DNA of 35,281 nt from Verrucomicrobiota bacterium (lineage in GTDB: Bacteria; Verrucomicrobiota; Verrucomicrobiia; Opitutales; Opitutaceae), in contig JAUWBD010000028.1 in assembly GCA_030605125.1 (NCBI GenBank), positions 1 through 35,281 of the forward strand. Reading direction: 5' to 3'. Positions 8,045 through 33,856 of this stretch are shown in pieces. Below the pieces are notes generated by a model, which was not told where the DNA came from, did not search any database, and was given only the letters and a program-made list of their open reading frames with translations. Positions within the stretch are counted from its first letter, which is position 1. Each line of letters starts with the position of its first letter. The translations under genes and the position numbers were made by a program.

Positions 8045-8106
8045 GGCGGAGGGGCGGGCGAGGATAGGGTTTGCGCGGGCGGGGCGGAGGGACAAGGTGG
8101 ACGAAA

Positions 8107-9165: not shown

Positions 9166-11207
9166 TCAGGGAAGGGTGAGGGTGAGCACGTCGCCGTCGG
9201 CGCCCAGCTTGCCGGTGTGGGTGGTGGCGGGGCGGCCGGAGCGGGTGACGGTGACGGTGTAGTCGCCTTTGAAACCGCGGAGGGCGAAGGTGCCGGCGGC
9301 GTCGGTGCGGCCGCTGGCTTCGGTGTGCCACTCGCGTTGGATGAGATCGCGGTAGGCGCGGGCGGAGGGTTTCTCGCTAAAATCGCGGCGCCAGAGCGCG
9401 GCCTGCGGTTTCCAGTGCGCGCGTTCCCAGAAGCCCCACATGTAGATGCCCGAGATGGAGGGGTGGCTGAAGAGCGCGGTGTAGAAGTCGCGGATGTAGT
9501 CGGCCTGCAGGCGGTCGTCGGGCGTCGCGAAATCGAACTCGGTGATGAGAATGGGCAGGTTGAAGGCCGCGAAGCGGTCGAGGGTGGCGAGGGTCTGGTC
9601 GATGCCGCCGGGGGTGTTGGTGAAGTGGGCTTGTTCGCCGATGGCGTCGATGGGCGCGCCGGCGTCGAGGACCTTGCGGAGGAGCTCGAACCAGGCGGTC
9701 ACCTTGCCCTGGGAGCGGGCGTTGCCGCCGCTGAGCATGGAGTAGTCGTTGAAGACGAGGCGGGTCTGGGGCGCGGCTTCGCGGGCGGCGCGGAACCAGT
9801 CGGCGATGACGAGGTCGCCGCCGAGGACGTTTTGGAGGACCTTGTTGTCGTTGGCCTCGTTGACGACGTCCCAGTCGCGGATGCGGCCTTCGAAGTCGTT
9901 GATGTCTTCGCGGAGGCGGCGGGCCACACGGGCGCGAACGTGGTCGAGATCGCCGGTGCGGACGGCGTCGAGGACGTCTTGCGGGAGGTAGAGCCAGGTG
10001 GCGTGCACGCCGGGCCAGAGCAGGGTGTGGCCGCGGACGGGGATGCGGCGTGGCTCGAGCCAGTCGAGCGAGGCGCGGATGTTTTCGCCGCGGCGCGGGT
10101 CGCCGTTGGTCCACTTGAGGTCGTTTTCGAAGACGACGGCGTTGAAGTTTTGCTCGACGATCTGGCGGTAGCGGTCGGCGTCGGAACCGGCGCGGGCGAG
10201 CCAGGCGGCTTGCACGGCGGTGCCGAAGGGGAAGGCGTGGCGGGCGAGGCGGACGGAGACCTGGGCGTCGGGCACGGGGCGTCCGGCGGAGTCGCGCACC
10301 TGAGGGTCCAGTCGGCCTTGCGGAGGCGCTCGATGCGCTCGGCGGCGGGAGCGCGCCAGGCGGCGTCGGGCTCGCGGCCTTGATAGGTGATGCGGAAGGC
10401 GGGGAGGGCGGAGACGGGGACGGATTTGCCGAAGTTGAGGACTTCGAAGCGCGCGACTTCGAGGACCTGGCCGGAGTGGCCGTAGGCGAGGGCGAACTGG
10501 AGGTTGTCGGCGGCGAGGTCCTGGTCGGAGACGAGGGGGAACTCGAAGACGGTCCACTCGGTGGGCACGGGCGCGGTGGGCCAGCGGACCCAGCGGGTGG
10601 TGCTGCGGTTTTTGGCGATGGCCTGGAGCGTGCCTTCGTTGGTTTCGGGTTGGGGGCGGGTGGCGCGGGCGAGGAAGCGGATGAGGAAGACGTCGTCCTT
10701 GGCGAGGGCGCCGCGGGAGGGCCACTCGAGCTGGGCGTCGTGGGATTGACGGAGCGGGACGGGGGACTCGAGGCGGAGGACGGGCCCCTGGGGCGTGGAG
10801 AGCAGCTCGGCCTCGGCGGAGGCGTCGGCGCCGTGGCGCTCGCGGTAGGAGCGCAGATCCGCGGGGGCGAGGAGGACGGTGGCGGCGGCCTGGGCGGCGG
10901 GCGGAAGCGAAGTGAAGCTTGGCCAGGTGTCGGTGACCGGAGGCGACGGCGGAGGAGGAGGCGGAGGCTCGGGGGTGGGCGGCGGGGGCGTGACCGGGGG
11001 TTGGGTGGACGGGGGTGGTGTATCCGGAGTTTGGGGACGTTCGGGCGCGGGCGTGGCGGGAGCTTGGGCGATGATGCGCTGGGCGCGGGCGCGGTTGGCG
11101 GGCCAGAGCTGCGGCGGCGTGGAGGAGGCGAGCGCAAGGAGCGGGTAGAGGGCGGCCGCGCCAAGGAGGGCGAGGACGGACCAGTGGCGGAAGGGGAGGG
11201 GGCGCAT
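9166..11207 (-). pseudogene. Secreted endo-1,4-beta-xylanase, GH10, split by a one-base frameshift
   Basis: Two frames together give one GH10 protein. The N-terminal frame, from ATG 11207, holds a signal peptide (WSVLALLGAAALYPLLALA), a Pro-rich linker of about 30 residues, and a beta-sandwich-like carbohydrate-binding region (about residues 70-290). It leaves frame at RKADWTL, near 10302. The other frame continues with QVRDSAGRPVPDAQVSVRL and the GH10 barrel. The acid/base Glu of WDVVNEAND is encoded at 9856-9858 and the nucleophile Glu of LITEFDF at 9538-9540, so the catalytic part is intact. A short beta-domain ends the protein. Inserting one base near 10302 would restore a single 681-residue product. 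It is the second gene after GH1 (61-base gap) and probably shares its promoter. Sequencing error, recent mutation or recoding cannot be told apart here. Confidence 0.85.
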
Positions 11208-11241
11208 GGGGGATGGGCGGATCGGGCTGAGAGGCAACGAA

Positions 11242-11267: not shown

Positions 11268-12644
11268 TCAGAGGAGGCGGTTTTCGCGCATGACTTGGGA
11301 ATACCAGCGGGCGCTGAGCTTGGGGGTGCGCTTTTGGGTGGCGTAGTCGGTGTGCACGAGGCCGAAGCGGACCCGATAACCATCGGCCCACTCGAAGTTG
11401 TCCATGAAGGACCAGCAGAAATAGCCCTTGAGAGGGGCGCCGTCGGTGATGGCGCGCCGGGCCTCGTGGAGGTAGCAACGCAGATATTCGCGACGGTGGA
11501 GGTCGAGGACCTCGCCGTTGGCGTCGGGCTCCTCGGAGGCGCCGTATCCATTTTCCGTTACATAGAGGGCGCGGTTGCCGTAAACCTCGGAGCAGAAGCG
11601 GAGCGTCCAGTAGAGGACGGGCGAGGTGGACTTGATCCAGCCGTTGTGCGGCGGCGTCTGCGGGTAGCCGTCGGGGAAGGGGAGGCGTTCGTAGGCGGGC
11701 TGGCCGCGGCGGGGCGCGGCGGCGGGGGCGCGGACGATGGTGCCGGTGTAGATGTTGAGGCCGAGGAAGTCGGTGGGCTCGGCGATGAGGGCGAGATCGC
11801 CGCGGGCGGTGACGGGGCGGTCCTTGCCCCAGGCGCGGAGCACGGAGGGCAGGTAGCGGCCGTGGGCCATGGCGCCGAGGATGTGGTCGTTGCGCTCGGT
11901 GAAGGCGGCGCGGGCGGCGGCGATGTCGGCGGGAGTCTCGGTGAGCGGGGCGAAGAGCTCGGGGTTGTCGGAGAGGCCGACGCGGGAGCCGCGGGCGCCG
12001 TGTTCGCGGACGGCGCGCACGCCGAGGCCGTGGGCGACGAGGGCGTGGTGGACGGTCTGATTGACGACCTGCTGGGAAACGGCGAGCGCGGGCGGGCGGT
12101 CGAAGGGGTGGGAGTAGGCGTAGGTGGTGAAGCAGCGGAGCTCGTTGAGCGTGATCCAGTTTTTCACGCGGCGGCCGAAGGCGCGGACGATGGTCTCGGC
12201 GTAGCGGCCGAAGGCCTCGGCGGTGGCGCGGGCGCGCCAGCCTCCCTGTTGCTCGAGGGCGTAGGGGGTGTCCCAGTGAAACATCGTCACCCAGGGCGTG
12301 ATGCCGTTTTCCTCCATCGAGTCGAAGAGGCGGTGGTAGAAATCGAGGCCACGCTGGTTGACGGGGCCGGTGCCGTCGGGGTGGATGCGGGGCCAGGCGA
12401 GGGAGAGGCGGTAGTTTTTGACGCCGAGCTCGCGCATGAGGCGGAAGTCGTCGGCGAAGCGATGGTAGTGGTCGCAGGCGACGTCGAGGTTGTCGCCACC
12501 GTGCACGCGGCCGGGCTGGCGCGCAAACTCATCCCAGCTGGATCGACCCTTTCCGTCGGCGAAGGCGGCGCCTTCGATCTGCGGGGCGGCGGTGGCGACG
12601 CCCCACACGAAATTTTTTGGGAAGGGGAGGGGATGGATTTTCAT
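11268..12644 (-). CDS. GH1 beta-glycosidase (beta-glucosidase type), cytoplasmic
   Basis: A 458-residue protein of normal GH1 length. The N-terminal family signature FVWGVATAAPQIEG is at residues 12-25. The acid/base is E168 in TLNEL and the nucleophile is E364 in YVTENGYG. DNFEWADGYRVRFGL near the C terminus is the usual aglycone-site block. The acid/base motif has Leu where most members have Pro (TLNEP). The ATG at 12644 is preferred over a TTG two codons earlier. No signal peptide is present, so it should hydrolyse imported beta-linked oligosaccharides (cello-, xylo- or galacto-type). An AAGTGA-type operator lies 73-90 bases upstream, and the GH10 xylanase follows in the same direction, forming a two-gene operon. 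Confidence 0.92.
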   Translation of the reverse strand: MKIHPLPFPKNFVWGVATAAPQIEGAAFADGKGRSSWDEFARQPGRVHGGDNLDVACDHYHRFADDFRLMRELGVKNYRLSLAWPRIHPDGTGPVNQRGLDFYHRLFDSMEENGITPWVTMFHWDTPYALEQQGGWRARATAEAFGRYAETIVRAFGRRVKNWITLNELRCFTTYAYSHPFDRPPALAVSQQVVNQTVHHALVAHGLGVRAVREHGARGSRVGLSDNPELFAPLTETPADIAAARAAFTERNDHILGAMAHGRYLPSVLRAWGKDRPVTARGDLALIAEPTDFLGLNIYTGTIVRAPAAAPRRGQPAYERLPFPDGYPQTPPHNGWIKSTSPVLYWTLRFCSEVYGNRALYVTENGYGASEEPDANGEVLDLHRREYLRCYLHEARRAITDGAPLKGYFCWSFMDNFEWADGYRVRFGLVHTDYATQKRTPKLSARWYSQVMRENRLL

Positions 12645-12716
12645 GCGCAAAAGGCGCGGGACGGACCGCGCCGCGAGGAGCAGGATGCGCGGGCGGGGAG
12701 GAACTTGGCAAAGAAA

Positions 12717-12734
12717 AAGTGATCTACTTCACTA
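12717..12734 (-). promoter_or_regulatory. 18-bp AAGTGA operator upstream of GH1-GH10
   Basis: AAGTGATCTACTTCACTA on the plus strand. It is 73 bases upstream of the GH1 ATG and behind the terminator of the preceding operon, so it sits where the GH1-GH10 promoter must be. On the transcribed side it is followed by a T-run and TTGCC, as at three other copies. Confidence 0.7.
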
Positions 12735-12820: not shown

Positions 12821-12849
12821 AAAAATGCCCCGGCCGGTGAGGCCGGGGC
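12821..12849 (-). terminator. Rho-independent terminator of the pseudopilin/GH11 operon
   Basis: Read on the minus strand: GCCCCGGCC, loop TCACC, GGCCGGGGC, then A and TTTTT. A nine-base GC stem with a T-run, 62 bases after the GH11 stop. Confidence 0.85.
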
Positions 12850-12911: not shown

Positions 12912-13706
12912 TCAAGGCAGTTCGATGGTGAAGGGCGAGTAGGTGACGGCGCCGTGGGTGGAGGCGCCGTGCCACTGGTTCTCGGCGAAGAAGCCGATCC
13001 AGCCGAGCTTCTCGCCCATCTTGCCGTGCCAGGGCACGCGCACTCGCCATTCGTTGATGTGGCGGACGTAGGAGATGGTGCCGGACGTGCGCGGCTGCTG
13101 GCGGATGCTCCACCACTGGGTGGGCTTGGCCTCGGTGGTGCCGGGGCGGTAGTAGAGGTCATACCAAGCCCCGTCGATCTGCTCGACGCCGACCTTCACC
13201 GCGTCGATCCCGAAGCTGTTGGCGCGGTTGCCGCCATACCAGTTCTCGATGATGTAGAACTCGACGTGCGGGAAGTCGGGGTCGTGGTGGGAGCGGCCCC
13301 AGATCCAGCCATAGAGGCCGGTGAAGACGCCGCCGCGGTTGCCGCGGTTTTCCAAGACCATCGAGTAGGTGGCCTTGGCGGCGGGGTTCATTTCGGCGAG
13401 CGGCTTGTTGAGCTTTTCGCGACCCATGCGGTGCACGAAGCCGTAGTTCCACACGTTCCACTCGATCTTGAAGCCGAGGGTCGGCGAGGTGCTGAGGACG
13501 GTGGTGCAGGCCCAGGAGGCGGGGGTGAGGTTGGCCGAGGTCCAGTTGCGGACATACATGCCGGTGTTGCCGATGAGCCAGGAGTCGGGGCTGCCTTTCT
13601 GGCAATAGGTCTGGGCTTGGGCGGTCGGGGCGCCAGCGAAGACGAGGCCGAGGAAGGCGGCGGCGGTGGATGCGAGGACGCGAAGCGTCGAGGCGGAGCG
13701 GGTCAT
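12912..13706 (-). CDS. Secreted GH11-type endo-1,4-beta-xylanase
   Basis: A 264-residue protein. Signal peptide at residues 1-31 (LASTAAAFLGLVFAGAPTAQA). The mature part shows the GH11 beta-jelly-roll landmarks in order: a YGWIWG strand, VEFYIIENWYG with the nucleophile at E149, PTQWWSIRQQPRTSGTIS (residues 195-212, the conserved WSVRQ..RTSGT thumb block), HINEW, and a late FFAENQW strand whose E242 should be the acid/base. The late motif departs from the usual ATEGYQSSG, so substrate preference may differ. The ATG at 13706 is the last start before the signal peptide. It is the third gene of an operon behind a secreted protein and a pseudopilin, and is followed by a REP element and a strong terminator. 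Confidence 0.82.
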   Translation of the reverse strand: MTRSASTLRVLASTAAAFLGLVFAGAPTAQAQTYCQKGSPDSWLIGNTGMYVRNWTSANLTPASWACTTVLSTSPTLGFKIEWNVWNYGFVHRMGREKLNKPLAEMNPAAKATYSMVLENRGNRGGVFTGLYGWIWGRSHHDPDFPHVEFYIIENWYGGNRANSFGIDAVKVGVEQIDGAWYDLYYRPGTTEAKPTQWWSIRQQPRTSGTISYVRHINEWRVRVPWHGKMGEKLGWIGFFAENQWHGASTHGAVTYSPFTIELP

Positions 13707-13865
13707 TATTTGGGGGTTTGGGTTGGGGTTGACGCGATGCCACGCGCAGGGGAAACGCGTGGCGCCGCGGAAAGCGGGTAACGGGCAAAGAACGGAGGCG
13801 GGCGCAGGGCCGGGGACCGGCACGGGCGTGACGGTGCGCGAGCGGAAGGCGCGGGCCGGGGTGGG

Positions 13866-13909
13866 CGAGCCGCCAAGGCGGCTCGTCGAAAGCGGAGCCG
13901 AGGCTCCGC
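13866..13909. repeat. Double-hairpin intergenic repeat
   Basis: Two adjacent palindromes: CGAGCCGCC (13866-13874) with GGCGGCTCG (13877-13885), then GCGGAGCC (13892-13899) with GGCTCCGC (13902-13909). It lies in the 224-base gap between the pseudopilin stop and the GH11 start. The two-hairpin layout looks like a dispersed element. In the mRNA it could protect or separate the GH11 message. The rest of the gap shows nothing clear. Confidence 0.55.
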
Positions 13910-13930
13910 ACTCCAAAACGCAGCGGCGGC

Positions 13931-14701
13931 TCAGAGGCCGGCGGCCATCTGGAAGCGGGCGTCCACGTTGGCGCCGGTGTAGCGGGCGTCGAGTTCGGCG
14001 GCGGTGAAGCCGCGAACAGAGCCGTCGGCGAAGGCGACGTTGCTGCGATTTTTCCCGCCGTGCCAGAACTGCACGTCGGTGGACGTCGGGGCGGGGGCAA
14101 TGGAGTTGAAGAATCCGCCGCGCTGAACGACCGGCAGCGCAGTCTTGAACGTGTTGCTGCCGACGCGAGACTCGAGGAGGAACACGCCGAGGGTGGGATT
14201 GCGAAGCGTGCTCATCGAGCGGGGCAGACGCTGGTTGATGTCATTGTTCCACTGGTTGAGGCCGCCGGCGGCCGCGCCCATCGCGTAGGTGTTGGCGATC
14301 GGCGTGCTGTTGCCCGAAACCTCGTCGTAGTTGTTGGACGGGCAGGTCATCACCTCGTGGCGCTGATTGTTGCCGCCACCGGTGCGGGTGGCGAGGTAGG
14401 TCCGGAAGATTGGATGCTCGGACCAGGCGGTGTTGGAGGCGGTGGTCCAGGGGGCGGGGCTGGTCGAGTCGGCGTTGGCCGGTGGGAGTTGTCCGCGGTT
14501 GTCCTCGGCGCAGATGCGGAGGGCCATGGCGGTCTGGCGCATGTTGGAGACGCACTGGCTGGCGCGGGCGCTTTCGCGGACCTTGCCCACGGTGGGGATG
14601 ATGATCGCGGCAAGGATGCCGATGATCGCGATGACGGTGAGCAGCTCGATCAACGTGAAGCCGCGGGACGAGGCGAGGTGGAGGGAAGAGCGGGATTTCA
14701 T
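13931..14701 (-). CDS. Type II secretion-like pseudopilin with H-X9-DG C-terminal motif
   Basis: A 256-residue protein. The prepilin signal [26 protein letters not shown] predicts cleavage after G14, with the conserved Glu five residues into the mature protein and one hydrophobic helix. The C-terminal block [19 protein letters not shown] is the H-X9-DG motif of the large planctomycete-verrucomicrobial pseudopilin family (DUF1559-like). Such proteins are inserted in the inner membrane and processed by prepilin peptidase; most have no assigned function. The ATG at 14701 directly precedes the basic leader. It sits between a secreted protein (32-base gap) and the GH11 xylanase, so it is cotranscribed with a polysaccharide-degrading enzyme. 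A role in assembling or exporting that enzyme is an inference. Confidence 0.9.
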
Positions 14702-14733
14702 GGCGGGTGCGGGTCGGGGTTGGGGCGGGAAAG

Positions 14734-15477
14734 TCAGGGGAGTTCGATGGTGACGTTGTCGATGCGGAGCACGGAATCGGGCTTCCAGGAGGAGGCGTCG
14801 GCGATGGCCCACTTCAGGCGCAGGCGAAACTCGGGCGAATCGGTGGAGCGCACGTAATCGATAAACTTTTGCATGGTCGGCATCGCGCGCTCGTTGAGGA
14901 CGTAGCGGTTGGTGCGGAAGTCGCCTTCGCCGCGGAGCCGGCCGAGGACGAGGCGGTTGAGGTAGGGGGCGTTGTTGGCCCAAAACTGCTGGTTGTCGGG
15001 CCCGTTGGGGGCGAACTCGATATAGACGTCCACCATGCGGCCGACGGGCGCGGAGAGATCGAAGCTGACGAAGGCGCCGACCAAATCGCGCATCTGCAGG
15101 GCGGCGGGCGTGACCGAGCTAAGGGTATCCACGGCGCAAGTGACGATGGCGTATTTCTCGGCGGGCTCGACCACGTTCAACTGCACTCCTCCACCTCCGT
15201 GTTTCCCGAGCCCCGGGCCTTGGGAGAGCATGAGGCGGCCGCCGCCGCTGGAGGCCGAGAACACGCCGCCGCCGAGGCGCGGGGAGTTCTGGCCAGCGGC
15301 GAGCGTGAGGCTGGCGGGCGGCGCTGCCTCGAGGTTCTCGTTGAACACGCGCACCGACTGCGCGAGCGCGCCGGAGCCGAGGAGCAGGCCGGCGGCGCTG
15401 GCAAAAAGCGCGCGGCGGCCGAACGAAAGCCCGGGGACGGACGGGCGTTGGACGGGGGTAATCATCTCAAGTGACAT
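14734..15477 (-). CDS. Secreted protein of unknown function, first gene of the GH11 operon
   Basis: Up to 247 residues. The N terminus [23 protein letters not shown] is a signal peptide with a twin-arginine pair. The mature part is beta-rich, begins FNENLEA and ends [14 protein letters not shown], the form of a jelly-roll carbohydrate-binding domain (compare the ETF/DNV pattern in other secreted proteins of this group). Two starts are possible: ATG 15477, inside the operator at 15469-15486, or ATG 15465, just downstream of it. The second is attractive because the operator would then be untranslated. It is the promoter-proximal gene of the secreted protein-pseudopilin-GH11 operon. A carbohydrate-binding or structural role is likely but not shown. 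Confidence 0.7.
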
Positions 15478-15486
15478 AGGAAACTA
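15469..15486 (-). promoter_or_regulatory. 18-bp AAGTGA operator at the start of the pseudopilin/GH11 operon
   Basis: AAGTGACATAGGAAACTA on the plus strand, identical over all 18 bases to the copy at 21489-21506. It overlaps the ATG at 15477 and lies three bases before the alternative ATG at 15465. Confidence 0.65.
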
Positions 15487-15617: not shown

Positions 15618-17627
15618 TCAGTCGAGCGGATCGATGCGGCCCATGGGCGCGGCGGCGGAGGAGCCGGAGGCCTTGGCGCGAGCGCGGGAGTCGGGGTTGG
15701 AGAGCTCGCCGCCGACGCGATCGTAGCCGATCCAGGCGAAGAAGGCGTCGCGGGCCTCGCGCTCGGCGGCGCTGAGCACGCGGGAGGGAAGGCGCGAGGC
15801 GAGGGCGTCGAAGGGGCGGCCGGAGACGAGGCGGTAGTCGCCGTTTTCGGGATCGCGGAGGGCGCGCGGGGCGTGGGCGAGATCGCGCTCGGTGACGTCG
15901 GCGGCGGAGCGCCAGGCGGCGAGGTTTTGCGGAGCCTCCTTGCCGTCGCGTCCGGGGATCAGGAAGCGCTCGGCGCCGTCGGCCCCGGGGAAGGCGTAGA
16001 TGTTGCCCTCGCCGATCCAGCGGAAGGGGGCAGAGCGGTCCTCGGGCTTGCGGCGGTCGGAGAAGCGGAGGAGGCGGGGCTGGGCGTCGCCGAGGGCGAG
16101 GACCGTGCGCTCGAGCTGGAGGATGCTGCCCTCGAAGGGGTCCTTGCGGGCGTGGGCGTCGCGCCGGCCGCTGATGCGGGCGTCGGCGAGGATGGCGGGT
16201 TCGGCGTTGCCCCAGGCGCGGCCGGCGTAGTTGTTGTAGAATACGGAGTCCTGGATCAGCGCGTTCTTGACGTGCCAAAGGCGGAGGGTGGTGCCGCCGT
16301 TCATCGAGCCGCCGACGGCGAGCACGCGGCGGGCGCGGAAGGGGCCGACGCCGAGCTCATAGACGAGGCCGCCGGGGGCGTTGTCTATGAGCACGAGGTC
16401 CTCGTTCCAGACGTCGCGGCAGGCGATGTCGTAGTGGAAGCCGGTGGAGACGTTGGCGATGGATTCGTGACCGCGCACCCAGTGGCGCTTCACGTAGTGG
16501 AGCTTCACGCCGCCGGAGAACCAGGCGATCTCGCCGCCGCGCCAGACGCGCCAGCCGTTGAAGCTGGTCTGGTTGCGCTCCCAGAGCATCTCGGAGGCGC
16601 CCCAGCCGGTGATGCCGAGGCCGCCGTTGTAGTTGAAGCGATTGTCGCGGAGGGTCCAGCCGGCGCCGCCGAGGGAGAGGGCGGTGGAGTTGTTCCAGAG
16701 GAAGTCGCAGCGCTCGATGAGGACGTCGCGCGGGCCGAACTCGCCGACGTTGCCGAAGTTGACGGGGCGGGGGCCGGTGAGGGAGTTGGCGGCGCGGGTG
16801 AAGACGAGGTTGCGCAGGACGAGATTTCCGCGGGAGCCGAAGTTGATGAGGTTGCGGCGCACGGAGACCTCGAGGCCTTCGGCGGGGATTTTTTCGCCGG
16901 GGGCGAGGCGGACGTAGAGGCGGCCGTCGTCCTGGTGCTCGGTGACGCCGAACTCGCCGGCGAGGAGAGTGGCGCGGGGATCGAGCGTGCGCTGGTAGGT
17001 CCAGGAAGGCTTGGCGGCGCGCTCGAGGGTGGAGAGGGACTGGCCGATGCCTTTGACCTGATACTCGTCGAGGATGATCTGGCGGAGCGGGCGGTCGCCG
17101 AGGAAGACCATCTCGCTGCGGTGGCCGATGAGGCGGGGCGGGCCCCAGTCGGGCGAGGCGTTGCCGAAGCGGTGGGGCCAGGCGGTGACGAAGAGACCGT
17201 CGCCGAGGTCTTGCCAGGCGGAGGCGGGGAAGAGGTCGGCGCCGGTGATGACCACGCGGCCGTGGGCCTCGCCCTCGACGACGAGGAGGGTGTCGCGCGC
17301 GGTGCCCTCGGCGAGGCCGAGGTCGGTGGCGGTCTCGCGGTAGAGGCCGGCCTTGAGGAGGAGGCGGGTGGGTGTGCCCTCGGCGAGGTGCTCGCGGGCG
17401 CGGGCGAAGCCCTCGGCGAGGGTGCGGGCGACGCCGGAATCGGCGGGCGCGGAGGGATCCACGATCACCTCCGCGCGGACCGCGGACTCGTCGATCCGGG
17501 CGCCGGTGATGTCGGGCTCGCCCCAGGTGATGGGCGCGGGCGGCGGCTCGGCGGAGCGCAGCGCGGACGGGGCGAAGGCGAGTAGTGCCAGCGTGGATAC
17601 GAAGGAGGGGAGCAGGTGCAGACGCAT
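15618..17627 (-). CDS. Secreted right-handed beta-helix protein, putative glycoside hydrolase (GH141-like)
   Basis: A 669-residue protein with signal peptide LLPSFVSTLALLAFAPSALRSA. An N-terminal region (about 50-130) of the LAEGFARAREHLAEGTPTRLLLKAGLYRET type, with VVEGEAHGRVVITGAD, is the entry of a parallel beta-helix. The helix continues with repeating short strands (LVLRNLVF, VLIERCDFLWNNST, TLRDNRFNYNGGLGI, MLWERNQTSFNG) to about residue 480. This architecture matches GH141-type enzymes, known as alpha-L-fucosidase or xylanase, but pectate-lyase-like relatives cannot be excluded. The last 60 residues are charged and may be disordered. The most symmetric operator copy lies 108-125 bases upstream of its ATG, and the LacI gene lies beyond that. 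It should act in the periplasm or outside the cell. Confidence 0.72.
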   Translation of the reverse strand: MRLHLLPSFVSTLALLAFAPSALRSAEPPPAPITWGEPDITGARIDESAVRAEVIVDPSAPADSGVARTLAEGFARAREHLAEGTPTRLLLKAGLYRETATDLGLAEGTARDTLLVVEGEAHGRVVITGADLFPASAWQDLGDGLFVTAWPHRFGNASPDWGPPRLIGHRSEMVFLGDRPLRQIILDEYQVKGIGQSLSTLERAAKPSWTYQRTLDPRATLLAGEFGVTEHQDDGRLYVRLAPGEKIPAEGLEVSVRRNLINFGSRGNLVLRNLVFTRAANSLTGPRPVNFGNVGEFGPRDVLIERCDFLWNNSTALSLGGAGWTLRDNRFNYNGGLGITGWGASEMLWERNQTSFNGWRVWRGGEIAWFSGGVKLHYVKRHWVRGHESIANVSTGFHYDIACRDVWNEDLVLIDNAPGGLVYELGVGPFRARRVLAVGGSMNGGTTLRLWHVKNALIQDSVFYNNYAGRAWGNAEPAILADARISGRRDAHARKDPFEGSILQLERTVLALGDAQPRLLRFSDRRKPEDRSAPFRWIGEGNIYAFPGADGAERFLIPGRDGKEAPQNLAAWRSAADVTERDLAHAPRALRDPENGDYRLVSGRPFDALASRLPSRVLSAAEREARDAFFAWIGYDRVGGELSNPDSRARAKASGSSAAAPMGRIDPLD

Positions 17628-17734: not shown

Positions 17735-17752
17735 AAGTGAACTATGTCACTT
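17735..17752 (-). promoter_or_regulatory. 18-bp AAGTGA operator, most symmetric copy
   Basis: AAGTGAACTATGTCACTT: six-base arms AAGTGA and TCACTT pair perfectly, with TA at the centre. It lies 108 bases before the beta-helix gene and 112 bases past the LacI stop. GGCAA six bases to its left is shared with other copies. Confidence 0.75.
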
Positions 17753-17863: not shown

Positions 17864-18898
17864 TCAGCGCGGGGCGAGGGCGCAGGAGGCGCGGGGGATG
17901 AGCTTGGTCTCGAGGCGGAAGGTGCCGCGGAGCAGCTTCGGGGTCTTGCGCTTGGCCTCGGCGGCGCGGATGAGGGCCTCGCCGGCGAGCCGACCCATCT
18001 CGTGAAAGGGCTGCTCGATGGTGGTAAGCGAGGGATCGCCAAATTGGGAGAGGAAGTAGTTGGAGTAGCCGATGACCGATAGATCCTGCGGCACGCGGAG
18101 GCCGAGGGCGCGGGCCTGGCGGACGAGGGCCATCGCGAAGGCGTCGGAGGAGCAGACAACGCCGGTGGGGCGCTCGGGCAGGGCGAGGAGCTGGCGCGCG
18201 GCGTCGTCGCTCTCGGCGGCGCTGGTCCACTCGGCGTGGACGATGCCGGCCGAGGCGAGGGTGGGTTTGCGGGCCTTGAGTTCGGAGAGGAAGGCCTTTT
18301 CGCGCCAGATCGAGGCGTTGTGCGTGGCGGGGCCGTTGAAGAGGGCGAGCTTTTGGTGGCCGAGGGAGCGGAGGTGCTCGACGGCGAGGCGGATGCCCTG
18401 CTCGTCGTCGGACATGTAGTTGAGGCACCAGTCCTCGGAGCGAGCGTTGTCGAGAATGGCGACGGGGAGCTGGCGGCCGTCGATCTGCTCGCGAAGGACG
18501 GGGAGGGTGGAGACGTCGGGGTTGAGCAGGATCATGCCCGAGACGCGCCACTTGAGGCAGCCGGCGACGGCCTCGGGGGTGATGCGCTTGTAGGGCACGT
18601 GGACCATCTTGACGAGGTAGCCGGCGGCGTGGGCGGCCTCGAGGACGCCGGAGAGGATGCGGAACTTGATCTCGAAGTCGTAATCGTCGGTGAGGATCGC
18701 GAGCATGCGGGAACGGCCGGCGATCATGGAGCGGGCGAGCTCGTTGACGTGGTAGCCGAGGGAGGCGGCGGCCTCGAGGACGCGCTGGCGCGTCTCTTCG
18801 CCGATGGAGCCGTCGTCGCGCTGGTTGTTGTTCAGCACGTAGGAGACGGTGGTGCGGGACACGCCGGCCTTGCGGGCGATCTCGATCATCGAAGGCAT
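17864..18898 (-). CDS. LacI-family regulator, best candidate for the AAGTGA operator
   Basis: A 344-residue protein from ATG 18898; an upstream ATG at 18949 would add 17 residues without a domain. The helix-turn-helix is at residues 4-24 (MIEIARKAGVSRTTVSYVLNN), followed by the hinge YHVNELARSM, in which Met replaces the usual Leu, and a sugar-binding-type effector domain with motifs ILTDDYD, GMILLNPDV, LPVAILDN, DDEQGIRLAVEHLRSLGH and VVCSSDAFAMALV. It is the most classical LacI protein of the three here. It lies between the GPH symporter and the beta-helix gene, next to the best-conserved operator copy. Together these point to control of the xylan genes, lifted by an oligosaccharide; this is an inference. 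Which ligand it binds cannot be read from the sequence. Confidence 0.92.
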   Translation of the reverse strand: MPSMIEIARKAGVSRTTVSYVLNNNQRDDGSIGEETRQRVLEAAASLGYHVNELARSMIAGRSRMLAILTDDYDFEIKFRILSGVLEAAHAAGYLVKMVHVPYKRITPEAVAGCLKWRVSGMILLNPDVSTLPVLREQIDGRQLPVAILDNARSEDWCLNYMSDDEQGIRLAVEHLRSLGHQKLALFNGPATHNASIWREKAFLSELKARKPTLASAGIVHAEWTSAAESDDAARQLLALPERPTGVVCSSDAFAMALVRQARALGLRVPQDLSVIGYSNYFLSQFGDPSLTTIEQPFHEMGRLAGEALIRAAEAKRKTPKLLRGTFRLETKLIPRASCALAPR

Positions 18899-18963
18899 GA
18901 CGGAACGATTCCGCGCGGGCGGGGCTTGGCAATGGAGCATTTCGGTCATGGTTGGAGGAAGAA

Positions 18964-19045: not shown

Positions 19046-20554
19046 TCAGAGTTTGCCGCGGCGGGATTCGAGTTCGGCGCGGATGGCCATCATGCGCGCG
19101 GGGGTGAGGGGGAAGCGCCAGAGGAGGAAGAGCGAGAGGCCGAGCAGGCTGGCGGGGAGCAGGGTGTAGCAAACGCGCATGGCGAGGAGGGCGGAGGCGG
19201 CCTGCGCCTCGCCTTTGGCGACCTCGAAGCCGCACCAGACGGCGAGCGGGCCGCCGAGGGCGAGGCCGACGGAGAGGGCGGCCTTGACGAACCAGGAGTA
19301 GGCGGAGGCGAAGGCGCCCTCGCGGCGCTCGCGCGTGCGCAGCTCGTCGTCGTCCACGATGTCGGCGTTGAGCGGGGGGATGAGTTGCCAGATCGCGGTG
19401 GCGGCGAGGCCGAGGAAGGCGCTGTTGACGACGGAGACCCAGGGGTAGGTGGGATTGTAGGTCCACCACTTGGTGCCCATCGCGAGCATGACGGTGGCGA
19501 CGGCGCCGAAGAGGACGCGGATCTTGCCGAAGTGCCGCGAGAGGGCCTGGCAGGTCGGGATCGCGATGAAGCCGACGATCATCATCAACGTGGCCTCGGT
19601 GCCGACGAGCTTGGCGGCGAGCACCTGGTCGCCCTGCGCGACGTGGTAGAGGCGGACGTAGAAGCCGAGGCCGATGGAGACGTTGGTGCCGCCGACGAAG
19701 AGGATGGTGAAACCGGCGAGGATGAGGAAGGGGCGGCTGGTGAAGGTCCAGCGAAGGCTGTCGCGCAGGCGGATCTTCGCCTGGCGCGAGGCGGCCTTGT
19801 AGAAACGCTCCTTGACCACGAAGCCCGGCAGCGAACCGACGAGGATGACGAGCAGGCCCATCAAGGATGCGAGCGCGATGGCGCCGCGCAGCGTGTCGGG
19901 TTTGCCCGTTTCGGGATCGCGGAAGAAGGGGAGCTGGGTGAGGAACCACGCCCAACCGACGACGAAGCCGGCGCATTTTTGGAAGAACGCGCGGTAGGAG
20001 CTGACGCTCGTGCGCTCGTGGTAGTCGGGCGTGAGTTCGAGCAGCAGGCTCTGGTAGGGCATCGCCCAGATGGTGAAGAAGAGGTAGAGGATGAGGCCGC
20101 TGCCGAGGAGCCAAGCGAACTTGGCCTGATCGCCCCAGGTCGCGGGGGCCATCCACATCATGGGAAACCAGAGGCCGGCGAGGAGGGCGCCGGCGACGAG
20201 GTAGGGGCGGCGGCGGCCCCAGCGCGTGCGGGTGTTGTCGGAGATCCAGCCCATGAGCGGGTCGAGGATCGCGTCCCAGAGGCGGAAGAGAAAGGTGGCG
20301 AGGCTGACGAAGTGCGGGGAGAGCCCGAGCCCGACGACATAGACGGGCATCATGAGCTGGTTGGGCAGCGAGGACGTCCAGGTGTCCACCGCGCCGGCCG
20401 CGCCGTAGGCGAGCTTGCTGCGCACGGGGACCTTGTCCTCGGGCGCGGTGGGCGGCGGGATCGCGCCGGCGGTGCCGGCGGGCGATGCGAGCGCGGCGCT
20501 CGGCGAGGCGCTCGCGGCGGGAGATGACGACGGAGATGGGGCGGGGGAGGACAC
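19046..20554 (-). CDS. GPH-family sugar:cation symporter (MelB-like)
   Basis: A 502-residue inner membrane protein with about twelve hydrophobic segments after a 40-residue Pro/Ala/Ser-rich cytoplasmic tail. The segment RLWDAILDPLMGWISDNTRT then RWGRRRPYL (residues 91-119) matches MelB, with D94 and D98 at the positions of the cation-binding aspartates. This supports sodium- or proton-coupled uptake of glycosides. The start is uncertain: the GTG at 20554 gives an N terminus like that of the second symporter (MSxPAP); the next ATG is inside a membrane segment. The start is only about 12 bases past the T-run of the upstream terminator, so expression may depend on readthrough or on a promoter inside it. 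The LacI gene follows after 147 bases. It probably imports xylo-oligosaccharides. Confidence 0.88.
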   Translation of the reverse strand: MSSPAPSPSSSPAASASPSAALASPAGTAGAIPPPTAPEDKVPVRSKLAYGAAGAVDTWTSSLPNQLMMPVYVVGLGLSPHFVSLATFLFRLWDAILDPLMGWISDNTRTRWGRRRPYLVAGALLAGLWFPMMWMAPATWGDQAKFAWLLGSGLILYLFFTIWAMPYQSLLLELTPDYHERTSVSSYRAFFQKCAGFVVGWAWFLTQLPFFRDPETGKPDTLRGAIALASLMGLLVILVGSLPGFVVKERFYKAASRQAKIRLRDSLRWTFTSRPFLILAGFTILFVGGTNVSIGLGFYVRLYHVAQGDQVLAAKLVGTEATLMMIVGFIAIPTCQALSRHFGKIRVLFGAVATVMLAMGTKWWTYNPTYPWVSVVNSAFLGLAATAIWQLIPPLNADIVDDDELRTRERREGAFASAYSWFVKAALSVGLALGGPLAVWCGFEVAKGEAQAASALLAMRVCYTLLPASLLGLSLFLLWRFPLTPARMMAIRAELESRRGKL

Positions 20555-20566
20555 GGTCGGCGGCCG

Positions 20567-20597
20567 AAAAAAAGGCCGCACCCTCTCGAGTGCGGCC
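20567..20597 (-). terminator. Rho-independent terminator of the PEP-CTERM gene
   Basis: On the minus strand: GGCCGCAC, eight-base loop, GTGCGGCC, then seven T. It lies 29 bases past the stop at 20627 and ends just before the symporter start. Confidence 0.9.
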
Positions 20598-20626: not shown

Positions 20627-21430
20627 TCAGCGGCGACGGCGGCGCGTCGCGGCGAGGCCGAGACCGGTCAGCCCGGCGAGGGCGGCGAAGGCGGAGGGCT
20701 CGGGGATGGCGGTCGCTTGGAGTTCGAACGTGTCGAAGCGGGTGATGACCGCGGAGCCGAGGGTGACATAGATGCCAAAGGCCTCGACCGTGCCGGTGGT
20801 GGGGAGGGTGGTGGTGCCGGAAACCGAGAACGGGGAGCCAATCGTGGCGGTCAACGTGTGCCAACTGGCGGTGGCGAGATTGAAGGTCGTCTTGGTGGCG
20901 GTGGTGTCGAAGTCGGCGGCGGTGCCGGCGGTCGTGAAGTTGTTCGACGCCTGCGTGACATACCAGACGCCGTCGATCTTGATTGCGACGTTTTGCGAGT
21001 TGGGCGCAGCGGAGCCTGTATTGCGGTTCGAATACCAGGAGGCCGAGTTCAGCTCATACTGCGAGAGATTGAACGAGTATTCGTTGGTGTAGAGCAGCGT
21101 GTTGGTCGTGTTCTGGTTGAAGACGAAGCCGTAGATCATGCTCTCGGAGACGCCCGCGTTGACGTTGTCTAGGTTCTGGGGAGCGCCATCGACGTTGGTC
21201 TTGGTCGCGTTGCCGGTGACGGTGCCGTTGGCGCCGGCCGAGAAATCGGCGACATTGCCCGCCGCCGTGGCGGAGCCGAGGCGAGCCCAGCCGTAATTCG
21301 CAATATCGACTCCGAAGTTGGCGTTGTTGCCGAAGGTCTCGCGGTAGATGGTGGTTTGCGCGGACGCGACGCTGGCGAAGGACGAAACGGCGAGGGCGCC
21401 GGCGAGGAGGGTGAGGTTTGGGGTCTTCAT
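20627..21430 (-). CDS. PEP-CTERM sorted secreted protein
   Basis: A 267-residue protein. Signal peptide MKTPNLTLLAGALAVSSFASVASA. The mature part is Asn/Thr/Ser-rich and beta-rich, beginning TTIYRETFGNN, as in secreted jelly-roll proteins. The C terminus IPEPSAFAALAGLTGLGLAA followed by TRRRRRR is a complete PEP-CTERM signal: PEP motif, hydrophobic segment and Arg cluster. In this system an exosortase processes the protein during export to the surface or extracellular matrix; no exosortase is in the window. It is divergent from the giant beta-helix gene, with operator copies near both starts, and has its own strong terminator. A role in binding substrate or in the matrix around the enzymes is an inference. 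Confidence 0.9.
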   Translation of the reverse strand: MKTPNLTLLAGALAVSSFASVASAQTTIYRETFGNNANFGVDIANYGWARLGSATAAGNVADFSAGANGTVTGNATKTNVDGAPQNLDNVNAGVSESMIYGFVFNQNTTNTLLYTNEYSFNLSQYELNSASWYSNRNTGSAAPNSQNVAIKIDGVWYVTQASNNFTTAGTAADFDTTATKTTFNLATASWHTLTATIGSPFSVSGTTTLPTTGTVEAFGIYVTLGSAVITRFDTFELQATAIPEPSAFAALAGLTGLGLAATRRRRR

Positions 21431-21488: not shown

Positions 21489-21506
21489 AAGTGACATAGG
21501 AAACTA
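21489..21506 (-). promoter_or_regulatory. 18-bp AAGTGA operator between divergent secreted-protein genes
   Basis: AAGTGACATAGGAAACTA, 58 bases upstream of the PEP-CTERM ATG and 70 bases upstream of the divergent beta-helix ATG. On the minus strand it is followed by TTTAAATTGACC, which could supply the -10 region. Confidence 0.7.
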
Positions 21507-26348: not shown

Positions 26349-27467
26349 CTACGGTTGCGCCGGCAACCAGCGTTCGATCCAGCGGTAGGCGTGCTCGCGG
26401 GCATCGGGCACGGTGTCGTGGCCGTCGCCGTGGATGAGCATCGAGACTTTCTTCGGCTCGCCGAGGAGGCGCCAGACGAGCCAGGCGTTGCGGATGGCGA
26501 GGTAGGACGCGGTGGTGTCGGGGTTGTAGGGATCCTCGAAAGGCTCCATGAAAAGCAGGGCGCGCGGGGCGCAGAGCGCGATGAGATCGGTGATCTCGTA
26601 GGGGGTGCGGCCGGTGCGGCGGATGATCTCGTCGGCTTGGGCGCGCGCGCCTTTCTCCCAGCCGACGAGGCGGTAGATGTTGGTCACCTGCGGGCTGACG
26701 CCGGTGGACGGCACGCCGACCACCACACGAGTGTCGGCCGCCATGAGGCGGAGGGTGTTGCCGCCGCCGAGGGAGTTGCCGATGGCGCCGTAGCCGGCCT
26801 CGTGGCGAATGCCGGGCAGGCGGTCGAGCAGATCGAGCGCGCGTTGCAGACCCCAGACGCGGCGGTCGCTTTGCGACCACTCCGGGTGGCGCGCCTCGAA
26901 GGCCTGGAGGTAGGCGTTGCGCCCGGCGCCGGGGGTGTCGGCGCCGTAGCCGAAGAGATCGGGCGCGAGGACGACGTAGCCGCGGCGGGCGAGCTCGACG
27001 GCGTAGGCGCGGTTGGGCGAGCGCTCGGGATTTTGCACGGCGAGTTTGCCGGCGTCGGTGGTGCCGTGGATGGCGACGACGGCGGAGCGCGGATGGGCGG
27101 GGTCGAAGCCCGGAGGCAGCAGCAAGTCGGCCTCGGACCAGGCGTCGTCGAGCACCTGGATGCGGTAGCGAATGCGGGCGAGCCCGTGGACCTCGTCGCG
27201 CATTACCTCCTCGAAGCGGAGGTCCGCGGGCGAGGGGGCGGGCGGGCGTTCGCCGAGGTAGCGTTGCACGCGCGTCTGGATGCGGGAGCGCAGCTCGGGC
27301 CATTCCTCGGGGCGCGTGTCGCGCAGGATGACCGGCGGGATGTCGGCGAAGGGGTGGTCGTTTTTTTGCGCGGACATTGGAGGAGCGGTGATGGCGGCGA
27401 CGGTGGCGAGGAGGGTGACGGCGCGGAGCGGGCGGAGGAGGCGGCGGAGCGGGGAGGGCGTGGGCAT
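26349..27467 (-). CDS. Secreted alpha/beta hydrolase, acetyl-xylan-esterase-like
   Basis: A 372-residue protein with a basic leader and hydrophobic segment (RRLLRPLRAVTLLATVAAITAPPMSA), consistent with export. The hydrolase core shows VVAIHG (oxyanion loop around H134-G135), a nucleophile elbow GAIGNSLGG with S232, an acidic residue in LLFMEPFEDPYNP, and HGDGHDT with H350 as the catalytic His. The layout is like dienelactone-hydrolase / CE7-like and related xylan esterases, which remove acetyl or uronoyl groups from hemicellulose. The ATG at 27467 is directly before the leader. It follows the second GPH symporter by 50 bases and precedes the flavin-reductase gene, probably in one transcript. 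The precise esterase family cannot be fixed by eye. Confidence 0.75.
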   Translation of the reverse strand: MPTPSPLRRLLRPLRAVTLLATVAAITAPPMSAQKNDHPFADIPPVILRDTRPEEWPELRSRIQTRVQRYLGERPPAPSPADLRFEEVMRDEVHGLARIRYRIQVLDDAWSEADLLLPPGFDPAHPRSAVVAIHGTTDAGKLAVQNPERSPNRAYAVELARRGYVVLAPDLFGYGADTPGAGRNAYLQAFEARHPEWSQSDRRVWGLQRALDLLDRLPGIRHEAGYGAIGNSLGGGNTLRLMAADTRVVVGVPSTGVSPQVTNIYRLVGWEKGARAQADEIIRRTGRTPYEITDLIALCAPRALLFMEPFEDPYNPDTTASYLAIRNAWLVWRLLGEPKKVSMLIHGDGHDTVPDAREHAYRWIERWLPAQP

Positions 27468-29136: not shown

Positions 29137-30690
29137 TCAGTCGCCCAAGCGCTGGAAGCGCGGCAGGCGTTCGAGCGGGGCGGCCACCTCGATGACGCAT
29201 CCGCCTTCGTGCACCACGCCTTCGTCGTCGCGCCAGCGGCCCGGGGGGAGCGGCACGCGGCGGCTGGTGGCGCCCTTCGTCTGCACGGGCGCCACGAGGA
29301 TGTCGGAGCCGAGCATGAAGCAGTCGTTGACGGTCTCGAGCCCGGCGGAGGGGAACTCCCAGGCGAGGGGGCGGATGATGGGCACGCCGGTGGCGGCGGC
29401 CTCGCGGGCGAGGCGGAGGATGAGGTCGGCGTGCTCCTCGTGGAGGCGGGCGGCGGCGACGCAGGCGGCGGCGTGGCGCGGGGAGAGGACGCGCCAGGGG
29501 GCGGCGCTGAACTGCATCATCGGCATGAGCGCGGCGCACTGGGCGGCGCGCACGAAGAGCTCGTGGTCGAGCTTGTCGGCGTTGGCGGTGAAATTGAGGT
29601 ATTCGCCGCCGCCGATGAGGTCGGCGCAGCCGAAGGGCAGGCCGACGAGGCCCTGGGCGAGGACGTTGGGGACGAGGGTGGCGAGACCGTTGGCGCCCCA
29701 GCCGTGGACCTTGTCGCGAAGGCGCTGCGCGAGAGGCTGGCCGCCCATCTTCCAGCAGGCCCGGTATTCGTTTAGCGGATACTCCAGGCCAAGGCGGGCC
29801 CAGGCCTCGGCGTAGTCGGCGGGGTGCTTGGCGGGACCGGCGTAGAGATCGCCGGGGCGGAGGACGGAGGGGTCGCCGCCGTCAAACTTGAAGCCGTCCA
29901 CGCCGTAGTCGCGGATCATGCGGGCGCACTCGGCGCGCATCCAGGCGAGGCCGGGGCCGCCGGTGACGTCGAGGACGGCGCTGTAGCCGTCCCACCATTC
30001 GCGGATGGCGAGGGTGCCGTCGGCGGAGCGGACGAGAGCGCCTTCGGCGCGGAGTTTGCGGAAGACGACGCTGTCGGGCGTGATGAAGGGAACGAGCCAG
30101 AGGAGGACCTGGAAGCCGAGGGACTGGAGTTCGCGAACCATGCCGACGGGATCGGGGAAGCGGCCGGGGTGAAAGGTCCAGTCGCCGTAGTTCTGCTGCC
30201 AGCCGCAGTCGATGATGAGGGCGCCGGGGCCGTAGCCGGCGGCGACGGCGGCGCGGGCGTAGGCGAGGATGCCGGCCTGGTTTTGGTCGTAGATGAACTC
30301 GATCCAGGTGGTGAACTGCGGGCGGGTGAAGAGGCGCTCGTCGGGGATGCGGCCGGAGGGAGGGAAGTGGGCCTTGGCGGCGGCGAGCGCGGCGGAGGCG
30401 AGGGTAGGCAGGGCGCCGGAGCCGCGGCTGATCTCGGCGGGGCCCTCGAAGCGGGCGGAGTCGGGGCCGAAGCGGGCGGAGAACGGCTCGTTGCTCCAGA
30501 CGTAGCGTCCGAGCGAGGAGATGAAGCAGGGCGTGATCTGGTTGCCCCCCGGAGTGCCACCGAGGAGCGGATCGGCGAGGTCGATGACGGTCTCGGGGCG
30601 TCCGGGACCGAAGGGCATGGAAACGCCAAAATCGACGGCGCCTCCCCACCAGTATTCATTCTTTAGATACGGGAGTTCCAGGTTGGGCAT
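29137..30690 (-). CDS. GH31-family alpha-glycosidase, short cytoplasmic form
   Basis: A 517-residue protein. The barrel is recognisable from TTWIEFIYDQNQAGILAYA, ALIIDCGWQQNYGDW, LGFQVLLWLVPFI and YGVDGFKFDGGD, with D270 as the nucleophile. FGCADLIGGGEY carries D357, the likely acid/base, and the following PMMQFSAAPW block is typical of GH31. It is shorter than classical GH31 enzymes (700-900 residues) because most of the N-terminal beta-sandwich is missing. Known activities include alpha-glucosidase, alpha-xylosidase and sulfoquinovosidase; alpha-xylosidase would fit this locus. There is no signal peptide. The ATG at 30690 follows an operator copy by 92 bases, so it is part of the same regulon as the xylanases. 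Confidence 0.88.
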   Translation of the reverse strand: MPNLELPYLKNEYWWGGAVDFGVSMPFGPGRPETVIDLADPLLGGTPGGNQITPCFISSLGRYVWSNEPFSARFGPDSARFEGPAEISRGSGALPTLASAALAAAKAHFPPSGRIPDERLFTRPQFTTWIEFIYDQNQAGILAYARAAVAAGYGPGALIIDCGWQQNYGDWTFHPGRFPDPVGMVRELQSLGFQVLLWLVPFITPDSVVFRKLRAEGALVRSADGTLAIREWWDGYSAVLDVTGGPGLAWMRAECARMIRDYGVDGFKFDGGDPSVLRPGDLYAGPAKHPADYAEAWARLGLEYPLNEYRACWKMGGQPLAQRLRDKVHGWGANGLATLVPNVLAQGLVGLPFGCADLIGGGEYLNFTANADKLDHELFVRAAQCAALMPMMQFSAAPWRVLSPRHAAACVAAARLHEEHADLILRLAREAAATGVPIIRPLAWEFPSAGLETVNDCFMLGSDILVAPVQTKGATSRRVPLPPGRWRDDEGVVHEGGCVIEVAAPLERLPRFQRLGD

Positions 30691-30782: not shown

Positions 30783-30800
30783 AAGTGAACTATGTAACTA
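30783..30800 (-). promoter_or_regulatory. 18-bp AAGTGA operator upstream of GH31
   Basis: AAGTGAACTATGTAACTA; its first 13 bases are identical to those of the copy at 17735-17752. GGCAA lies six bases to the left, as in the copy at 17735. It is 92 bases upstream of the GH31 ATG and 35 bases past the HlyD stop. Confidence 0.7.
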
Positions 30801-31966: not shown

Positions 31967-32002
31967 GGCGGCGTGGAGGTCGCGGCGGCGCGGGCGCGGT
32001 TT

Positions 32003-33856
<1,854 letters not shown>

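Follow-up and report, generated by a model that had tools for sequence, protein, structure and literature searches.

The pseudopilin gene and its regulon

A stretch of 35,281 nucleotides from a Verrucomicrobiota bacterium of the family Opitutaceae (GenBank assembly GCA_030605125.1, contig JAUWBD010000028.1), called the window below, carries a pseudopilin gene between the genes for a secreted protein and a divergent xylanase of glycoside hydrolase family 11 (GH11). In this assembly, which comprises 271 contigs with a total of 4.88 Mb and is 95.7% complete, the window corresponds to contig C142. On the minus strand, the secreted protein, the pseudopilin and the xylanase are encoded in this order and are followed by a terminator. 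The features of the unit are as follows.

15470..15485, no strand: operator before the secreted protein-pilin-GH11 unit, AGTGACATAGGAAACT, an imperfect palindrome
14734..15477, minus: secreted protein, family unassigned, signal peptide by eye; start at 15477, or at 15465 by gene calling
13931..14701, minus: pseudopilin of 256 amino acids with a GFTLIE motif and H-X11-DG (PF07963, TIGR02532, alignment, model helix 17-67)
13840..13935, minus: predicted hairpin in the pilin-GH11 gap, minimum free energy -48.3 kcal/mol, z -2.47
12912..13706, minus: divergent GH11 xylanase, signal peptide by eye (PF00457, 45.6 bits)
12827..12849, minus: intrinsic terminator after GH11, stem of 9 G-C pairs, loop of 5, ATTTTTC

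The first-pass annotation, made from the letters of the DNA, had described a pseudopilin flanked by a secreted protein and a GH11 xylanase with one terminator after them, and all of this was borne out. The pilin matched PF07963 with 29.3 bits, and the xylanase matched PF00457 over profile positions 21-151 of 178, above the cut-off of 27 bits. Three terminator-type sites were found against 2.6 expected in shuffles, and the one after GH11 has the longest stem. The short gaps described there are real for the secreted protein and the pilin (32 bp), but the pilin and GH11 are 224 bp apart, with a stable predicted hairpin between them. The folded stretch takes in the last bases of the pilin gene. 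Among the loci fetched from this genome, two more sites with the 19-mer core of this hairpin were found, L165:5634-5652 and L199:3335-3353 (the same place as L030:689-707); the hairpin may be a small interspersed repeat.

The operator is a 16-bp element close to AGTGACATAGTTCACT that was found at five sites; three of these are near-perfect palindromes and two are imperfect ones. Its pattern was composed by eye from the sites at 12718 and 17736, when the half-match at 15470 was already known, which leaves the sites at 21490 and 30784 as the new finds. When the whole assembly was scanned with up to 3 mismatches, the element was detected at five places only, all in this contig, while a reversed control pattern gave 3 matches. 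The single operator described earlier does precede the unit; it is, however, one of five copies in a larger regulon. The other copies and the genes around them are listed below.

12718..12733, no strand: operator before GH1, AGTGAAGTAGATCACT
17736..17751, no strand: operator before the beta-helix gene, AGTGACATAGTTCACT
21490..21505, no strand: operator before the PEP-CTERM gene and a divergent beta-helix gene, identical to the 15470 site
30784..30799, no strand: operator before GH31, AGTTACATAGTTCACT
9166..11237, minus: GH10 xylanase, start uncertain (PF00331, 152.7 bits)
11268..12650, minus: GH1 glycosidase (PF00232, 453.3 bits)
15618..17627, minus: beta-helix protein, signal peptide by eye (PF13229, 26.8 bits)
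17864..18949, minus: LacI-family regulator (PF00356, 54.4 bits)
19046..20581, minus: GPH/MFS_2 sugar symporter (PF13347, 221 bits)
20627..21430, minus: PEP-CTERM-type secreted protein, C-terminus with IPEPSAFAALAGL and RRRRR, no Pfam match
26352..27467, minus: glucuronoyl-esterase-like hydrolase (PF22244, 26.9 bits, just under the cut-off of 27)
29140..30690, minus: GH31 enzyme (PF01055, 81.2 bits); nearest solved relative the GH31 alpha-galactosidase 8j53, E 3.2e-142

We consider this well-bounded regulon, with a pseudopilin in it, to be real. The earlier proposal that the pilin and the xylanase are co-regulated agrees with what was found: one strand, one terminator, and an operator common to five units and present nowhere else in the assembly. 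Probable co-regulation of the pilin within the hemicellulose cluster is thus well supported at the sequence level. Three LacI genes lie in the window, and the central one, at 17864-18949, likely reads the operator, judging from its position. The regulon stretch also holds two GPH/MFS_2 symporters and a flavin reductase. Together with these neighbours, GH10, GH11 and GH1 read as a xylan or mixed hemicellulose cluster; since GH31 is nearest to an alpha-galactosidase, the substrate is not narrowed further than hemicellulose.

The same observations bear on whether the pilin gene is an ordinary core gene of a type IV pilus or of the type II secretion system (T2SS), placed here by chance. The genome has ATPases of the T2SS/type IV pilus type, and six groups of two to five neighbouring pilin genes may be core clusters. 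However, the pilin was the sole T2SS or type IV pilus component matched among the window proteins scanned with profiles, and the operator common to the xylan genes was found in this window only. We regard a chance placement of a core gene as very improbable.

A generic LacI site, TGNAANCGNTTNCA, was rejected as the operator; it had no window match with 9-10 of its 10 fixed bases, and the eight matches with 8 of 10 do not lie before the unit. For the beta-helix protein, a GH120-type beta-xylosidase identity was considered and found no support; the PDB sequence search returned no match at E<=0.01. HlyD-type adaptor and ABC exporter genes were observed at 30836-33856, just beyond the regulon. The protein at 6626-8095 has a weak likeness to beta-xylosidases (4ekj, E 2.4e-6), and its gene adjoins another LacI gene.

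The GH11 xylanase is the only one in this genome. Gene calling puts its start at 13706; position 13916 marks just how far the open frame extends. One Glu aligns with the 3wp4 Glu that is Ala in 3wp5 and is taken as the predicted nucleophile; the acid/base region falls outside the alignment, and inspection by eye suggests a Glu close to the C-terminus as a candidate. The secreted protein matched nothing in Pfam or NCBIfam at E<=0.001 and had one match in the PDB sequence search (E 0.57), and its AlphaFold2 model, made without an alignment, was unusable (mean predicted local distance difference test score, pLDDT, 35.5).

Does the pairing of pilin and GH11 recur in other genomes? GH11 was present in three of 387 genomes of the phylum, and no pilin was detected by motif in the 17 kb fetched for each of the other two loci. 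With 228.6 and 152.6 bits, compared with 40 for the present one, these two enzymes are much closer to the GH11 type and need not belong to the same operon. In 150 genomes of the family, a single-sequence search with the GH11 found only itself, and the secreted protein found itself and one match with stops (E 5.7e-4). In 149 other family genomes, the pilin head had no relative at E<=1e-15 among up to 20 candidates scored per genome (20 of 163 in G005, a relative described below). A conserved GH11-pilin module was therefore rejected, and a pairing specific to the xylanase or to xylan, as first supposed, is unsupported; pilins elsewhere adjoin many different enzymes.

The pseudopilin protein

The pseudopilin carries the prepilin N-terminal cleavage motif followed by a hydrophobic helix, scoring above the cut-offs of both PF07963 (21.2 bits) and TIGR02532 (32.3 bits, cut-off 16.3). 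With this motif, Glu5 and a long helix, it resembles GspG/PulG of the T2SS. It differs from them in that the GspG equivalog model TIGR01710 gave 36.9 bits, below its cut-off of 88.85, with the match confined to residues 13-68, and in that the gene is not beside T2SS genes. For processing and assembly, the genome has 12 matches to the T2SSE family of ATPases and one prepilin peptidase (A24, PF01478, 62 bits); therefore, a processing and filament machine is available.

The C-terminal motif had first been read as H-X9-DG. The window pilin in fact has H-X11-DG, that is, two residues more than five aligned relatives, which have H-X9-DG at the same column. Using a simple pattern, the spacing in 51 other pilins of the genome was 9 in 17, 10 in 4, 11 in 4 and another value in 5, with no motif in 21; among 70 pilins of related loci it was 9 in 21, with no motif in 39. 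The aligned H..DG motif likens the protein to the H-X9-DG prepilin-type proteins of Verrucomicrobia and Planctomycetes (presumably the family TIGR04294), from which it is set apart by the longer spacing and by the lack of a PF07596 match in the Pfam scan; no model named for H-X9-DG was among its NCBIfam matches.

In alignment A7, which comprises 67 pilins (66 of the 70 taken from related loci entered it), mean pairwise identity was 80% over residues 13-56 and 19% over residues 70-205; the N-terminal value is inflated because N-terminal peptides had in part served to find the related loci. Conservation of Glu5 in 67 of 67 was rejected as evidence, since the relatives had been chosen by a motif that demands Glu. 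In the predicted model, a long helix spans residues 17-67 and the head is of low confidence (mean pLDDT 70.3). In a Foldseek search of the PDB, the best match of the model was the pilin 1ay2 (E 0.35), with none at E<=0.001.

The named relatives come from Opitutaceae and Opitutia metagenome-assembled genomes (MAGs), Geminisphaera colitermitum TAV2, Verrucomicrobia bacterium IMCC26134 and MAGs titled Akkermansia muciniphila. The closest one (43% identity, locus L038) matches PF07596/DUF1559 and is the second member of a tandem pair. It is followed by a protein with a weak heparinase II/III match (21.4 bits, cut-off 24) and then by another with a like N-terminus by eye. The records titled Akkermansia muciniphila (L040, L045, L066, L087 and others) hold Opitutia-like pilin loci, and their titles may be wrong.

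Highly variable heads on a similar helix would also suit a surface filament subunit whose head binds polysaccharide for adhesion and which takes no part in export. Glu5 is a feature of filament-body pilin subunits, and carbohydrate-active families adjoin pilins. Against these points, no carbohydrate-binding family or fold was recognised in the head, the model of which is weak, and we think that a purely adhesive pilin is unlikely here.

Pilin genes, LacI genes and polysaccharide clusters

PF07963 gave 79 matches in the genome, 77 of them over the cut-off, and LacI gave 71 (69 over the cut-off). When pilins less than 2.5 kb apart were merged, 68 groups were obtained. A LacI gene lay within 3 kb of 18 of the 68 groups, against 5.7 expected (Poisson 3e-5), and within 5 kb of 24, against 9.3 expected (Poisson 4e-5); the distance cut-offs were tried as a series, of which 3 kb is one. 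Four groups had a LacI gene within 500 bp, all of them divergent. The like was found in G005, a relative of the same family with a 7.4-Mb genome, where 34 of the 130 listed pilins were within 3 kb of a LacI gene, against 10.6 expected and a maximum of 22 in 2000 circular shifts; this comparison used the 130 pilins and 103 LacI genes listed on contig C1, out of at least 150 of each, and left out one pilin on C2. Eleven listed pilins of G005 had a LacI gene within 500 bp, again all divergent. That this one genome has on C1 at least 150 pilin and at least 150 LacI matches, with some divergent pairs, is an observation in its own right.

Neighbouring genes were analysed for 57 pilins of the genome; 58 of the 79 matches lay in the stretches used and one gene was uncalled. 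The window pilin was among the 21 left out, and stretches L198 and L199 were outside the count. The next gene was on the same strand as the pilin in 44 of 53 cases downstream and in 37 of 55 upstream. By our own signal-peptide heuristic, 62 of 105 flanking genes were positive compared with 26 of 88 control genes (p 5e-5). The related loci showed a like, weaker trend, with 71 of 140 flanking and 61 of 182 distal genes (p 0.002).

Families found beside the pilins of this genome include GH42 (3), GH38 (2), GH5 (2), GH4, GH16, alginate lyase, sulfatase, two carbohydrate-binding modules of family 9 (CBM9) and five beta-helix proteins. Among the first 25 of the 145 families of the 88 control genes, there were two pectate-lyase-like, two CBM9 and two beta-helix matches and neither a GH nor a LacI; single matches to carbohydrate-active enzymes may lie among the remaining families. 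At the related loci, heparinase II/III (12 of 147 neighbours) was found, and the first 25 families of 75 distal genes, out of 215 such genes (A3), included LacI-type sugar-binding domains (2), sulfatases (3) and fucosidases (2) and neither LacI nor heparinase II/III.

Among the 75 upstream neighbours at the related loci (L038-L117), 14 were class IV aminotransferase genes. This group looks like an inherited housekeeping pair, and its pilin may be a housekeeping one of these lineages. DHH, CBS and DRTGG domains were seen among the downstream neighbours.

Such large families also admit that the pilin is a passenger, i.e., a member of a duplicated, fast-diverging family that has entered carbohydrate clusters and is transcribed along with them though it is not required there. 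The numbers per genome (79 here and at least 150 in G005), the missing recurrence of the pilin-GH11 pairing and the weak coupling of heads to neighbours all fit this idea. The expansion is patchy, since three other family genomes have just 12, 13 and 16 matches. Comparable numbers appear in two reports, with 79 PulG-type genes in Fimbriimonas (PMC4072686) and 74 DUF1559 proteins in Rhodopirellula (PMC2754498). Random spread is, however, at odds with the linkage of pilins to LacI and to signal-peptide genes, and also with an alginate-raised cluster of another Opitutales species that holds a pseudopilin, with a further pseudopilin raised on alginate (PMC13274419). On balance, a mere passenger seems to us doubtful.

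That species is Verruconatronum alginivorum. According to PMC13274419, the whole of its cluster 000046-60 is raised on alginate, including the pulG-like gene 000050, of which the genome has 67 homologues. Another pseudopilin, encoded outside the clusters, is likewise raised, and the authors suggest that the alginases are exported by the T2SS. By their description, the two cases share the order Opitutales, a pseudopilin inside a polysaccharide cluster and many homologues per genome, and they differ in substrate, alginate there and xylan here. The arrangement has one published precedent. In view of this alginate cluster, the opinion of the first-pass annotation that these pseudopilins are mostly without function may be too pessimistic. 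For the LacI-pseudopilin linkage itself, no paper was found in the open literature, which was mostly searched on other terms and with subscription journals largely outside; as far as these searches reach, this linkage and the strictly local operator are new.

Proposed role of the pseudopilin

We propose that the pilin is a cluster-specific pseudopilus subunit in a LacI-switched hemicellulose regulon, where it would aid the export, holding or presentation of secreted partners, and we judge this reading to be about evenly balanced between right and wrong. The secreted protein-pseudopilin-GH11 unit would form one branch of a regulon devoted to hemicellulose, some 20 kb long and under the control of the one local operator, most likely through the LacI protein encoded inside. 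Once a sugar signal lifts the repression, the pilin would be produced along with the cluster's secreted proteins. With its prepilin N-terminal assembly helix and Glu5, and a head strongly unlike those of related pilins, it would be cut by the sole prepilin peptidase recognised in the genome and join a T2SS/type-IV-like pseudopilus, on which the head may help to export, hold or present the partners. The first-pass annotation had likewise supposed a part in enzyme display, export or polysaccharide binding, any of which would go beyond the co-regulation seen here. The unit in the window may be one instance of a wider habit of the lineage, where LacI genes occur close to pilin genes at a rate above chance.

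Several observations weigh against this proposal. Nothing ties the pilin directly to export, and the step from co-expression to export is one that we infer. Concerning the operator, the scan of the window on both strands gave 11 matches (ten at the five places and a weak one at 21579), where 1.6 were expected and 0 of 100 shuffles did as well. This statistic is inflated, since window sites had themselves supplied the by-eye pattern; the assembly-wide result is the stronger one. A strict palindrome, AGTGA-N6-TCACT with up to 2 mismatches, was found 8 times against 4.7 expected, and the sites at 15470 and 21490 belong to that weak class. The site at 15470 overlaps the earliest potential start codon, whereas about 60-110 bp separate each of the four others from a start. 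At other pilin loci, a shared 16-mer (up to 2 mismatches) as a cluster-local operator was found in 8 of 51, with about 7 expected from shuffles.

Concerning the linkage, 50 of the 68 pilin groups lack a LacI gene at distances up to 3 kb. LacI was found among the immediate neighbours in 8 of 108 cases in this genome, compared with at most about 1 of 88 controls (p 0.04 only), and in 6 of 147 at the related loci, and the control stretches were hand-picked from large contigs. The linkage may reflect no more than that both kinds of gene are common in carbohydrate clusters. Head-partner coupling is weak. Within the genome, homologous neighbours were shared by 4 of 14 pairs with similar heads (E<=1e-10), 20 of 152 with weakly similar heads and 110 of 1245 with none (similar versus dissimilar, p 0.03). 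Between genomes the figures were 167 of 286, 48 of 365 and 398 of 5557 for similar, weak and dissimilar heads, and these can be explained by common descent of whole loci. Finally, the proteome in PMC13274419 has one replicate per treatment, and the rise is given for the cluster as a whole.

More broadly, many sugar regulons of the Opitutaceae may each include a pseudopilin of their own, in which a common assembly helix carries a head specific to the cluster, and so re-tool one shared secretion pseudopilus for each polysaccharide. Such pilins would be a counterpart of the SusD-like proteins of Bacteroidota. We advance this extension tentatively, as something that could hold though it probably does not. 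The SusCD polysaccharide utilisation loci are a Bacteroidota system, and the present regulon resembles them in its co-regulated enzymes, transporter and regulator and perhaps in a surface accessory protein. It differs in that no SusC/SusD-type family was matched among the 27 window sequences scanned with Pfam, and LacI and GPH symporters are present instead.

Some Opitutaceae genomes hold tens to hundreds of unexplained pseudopilins. A regulon that has its own operator and includes a pilin offers a directly testable case, and the linkage between LacI and pilin genes offers a general hypothesis for the purpose that these pilins may serve.

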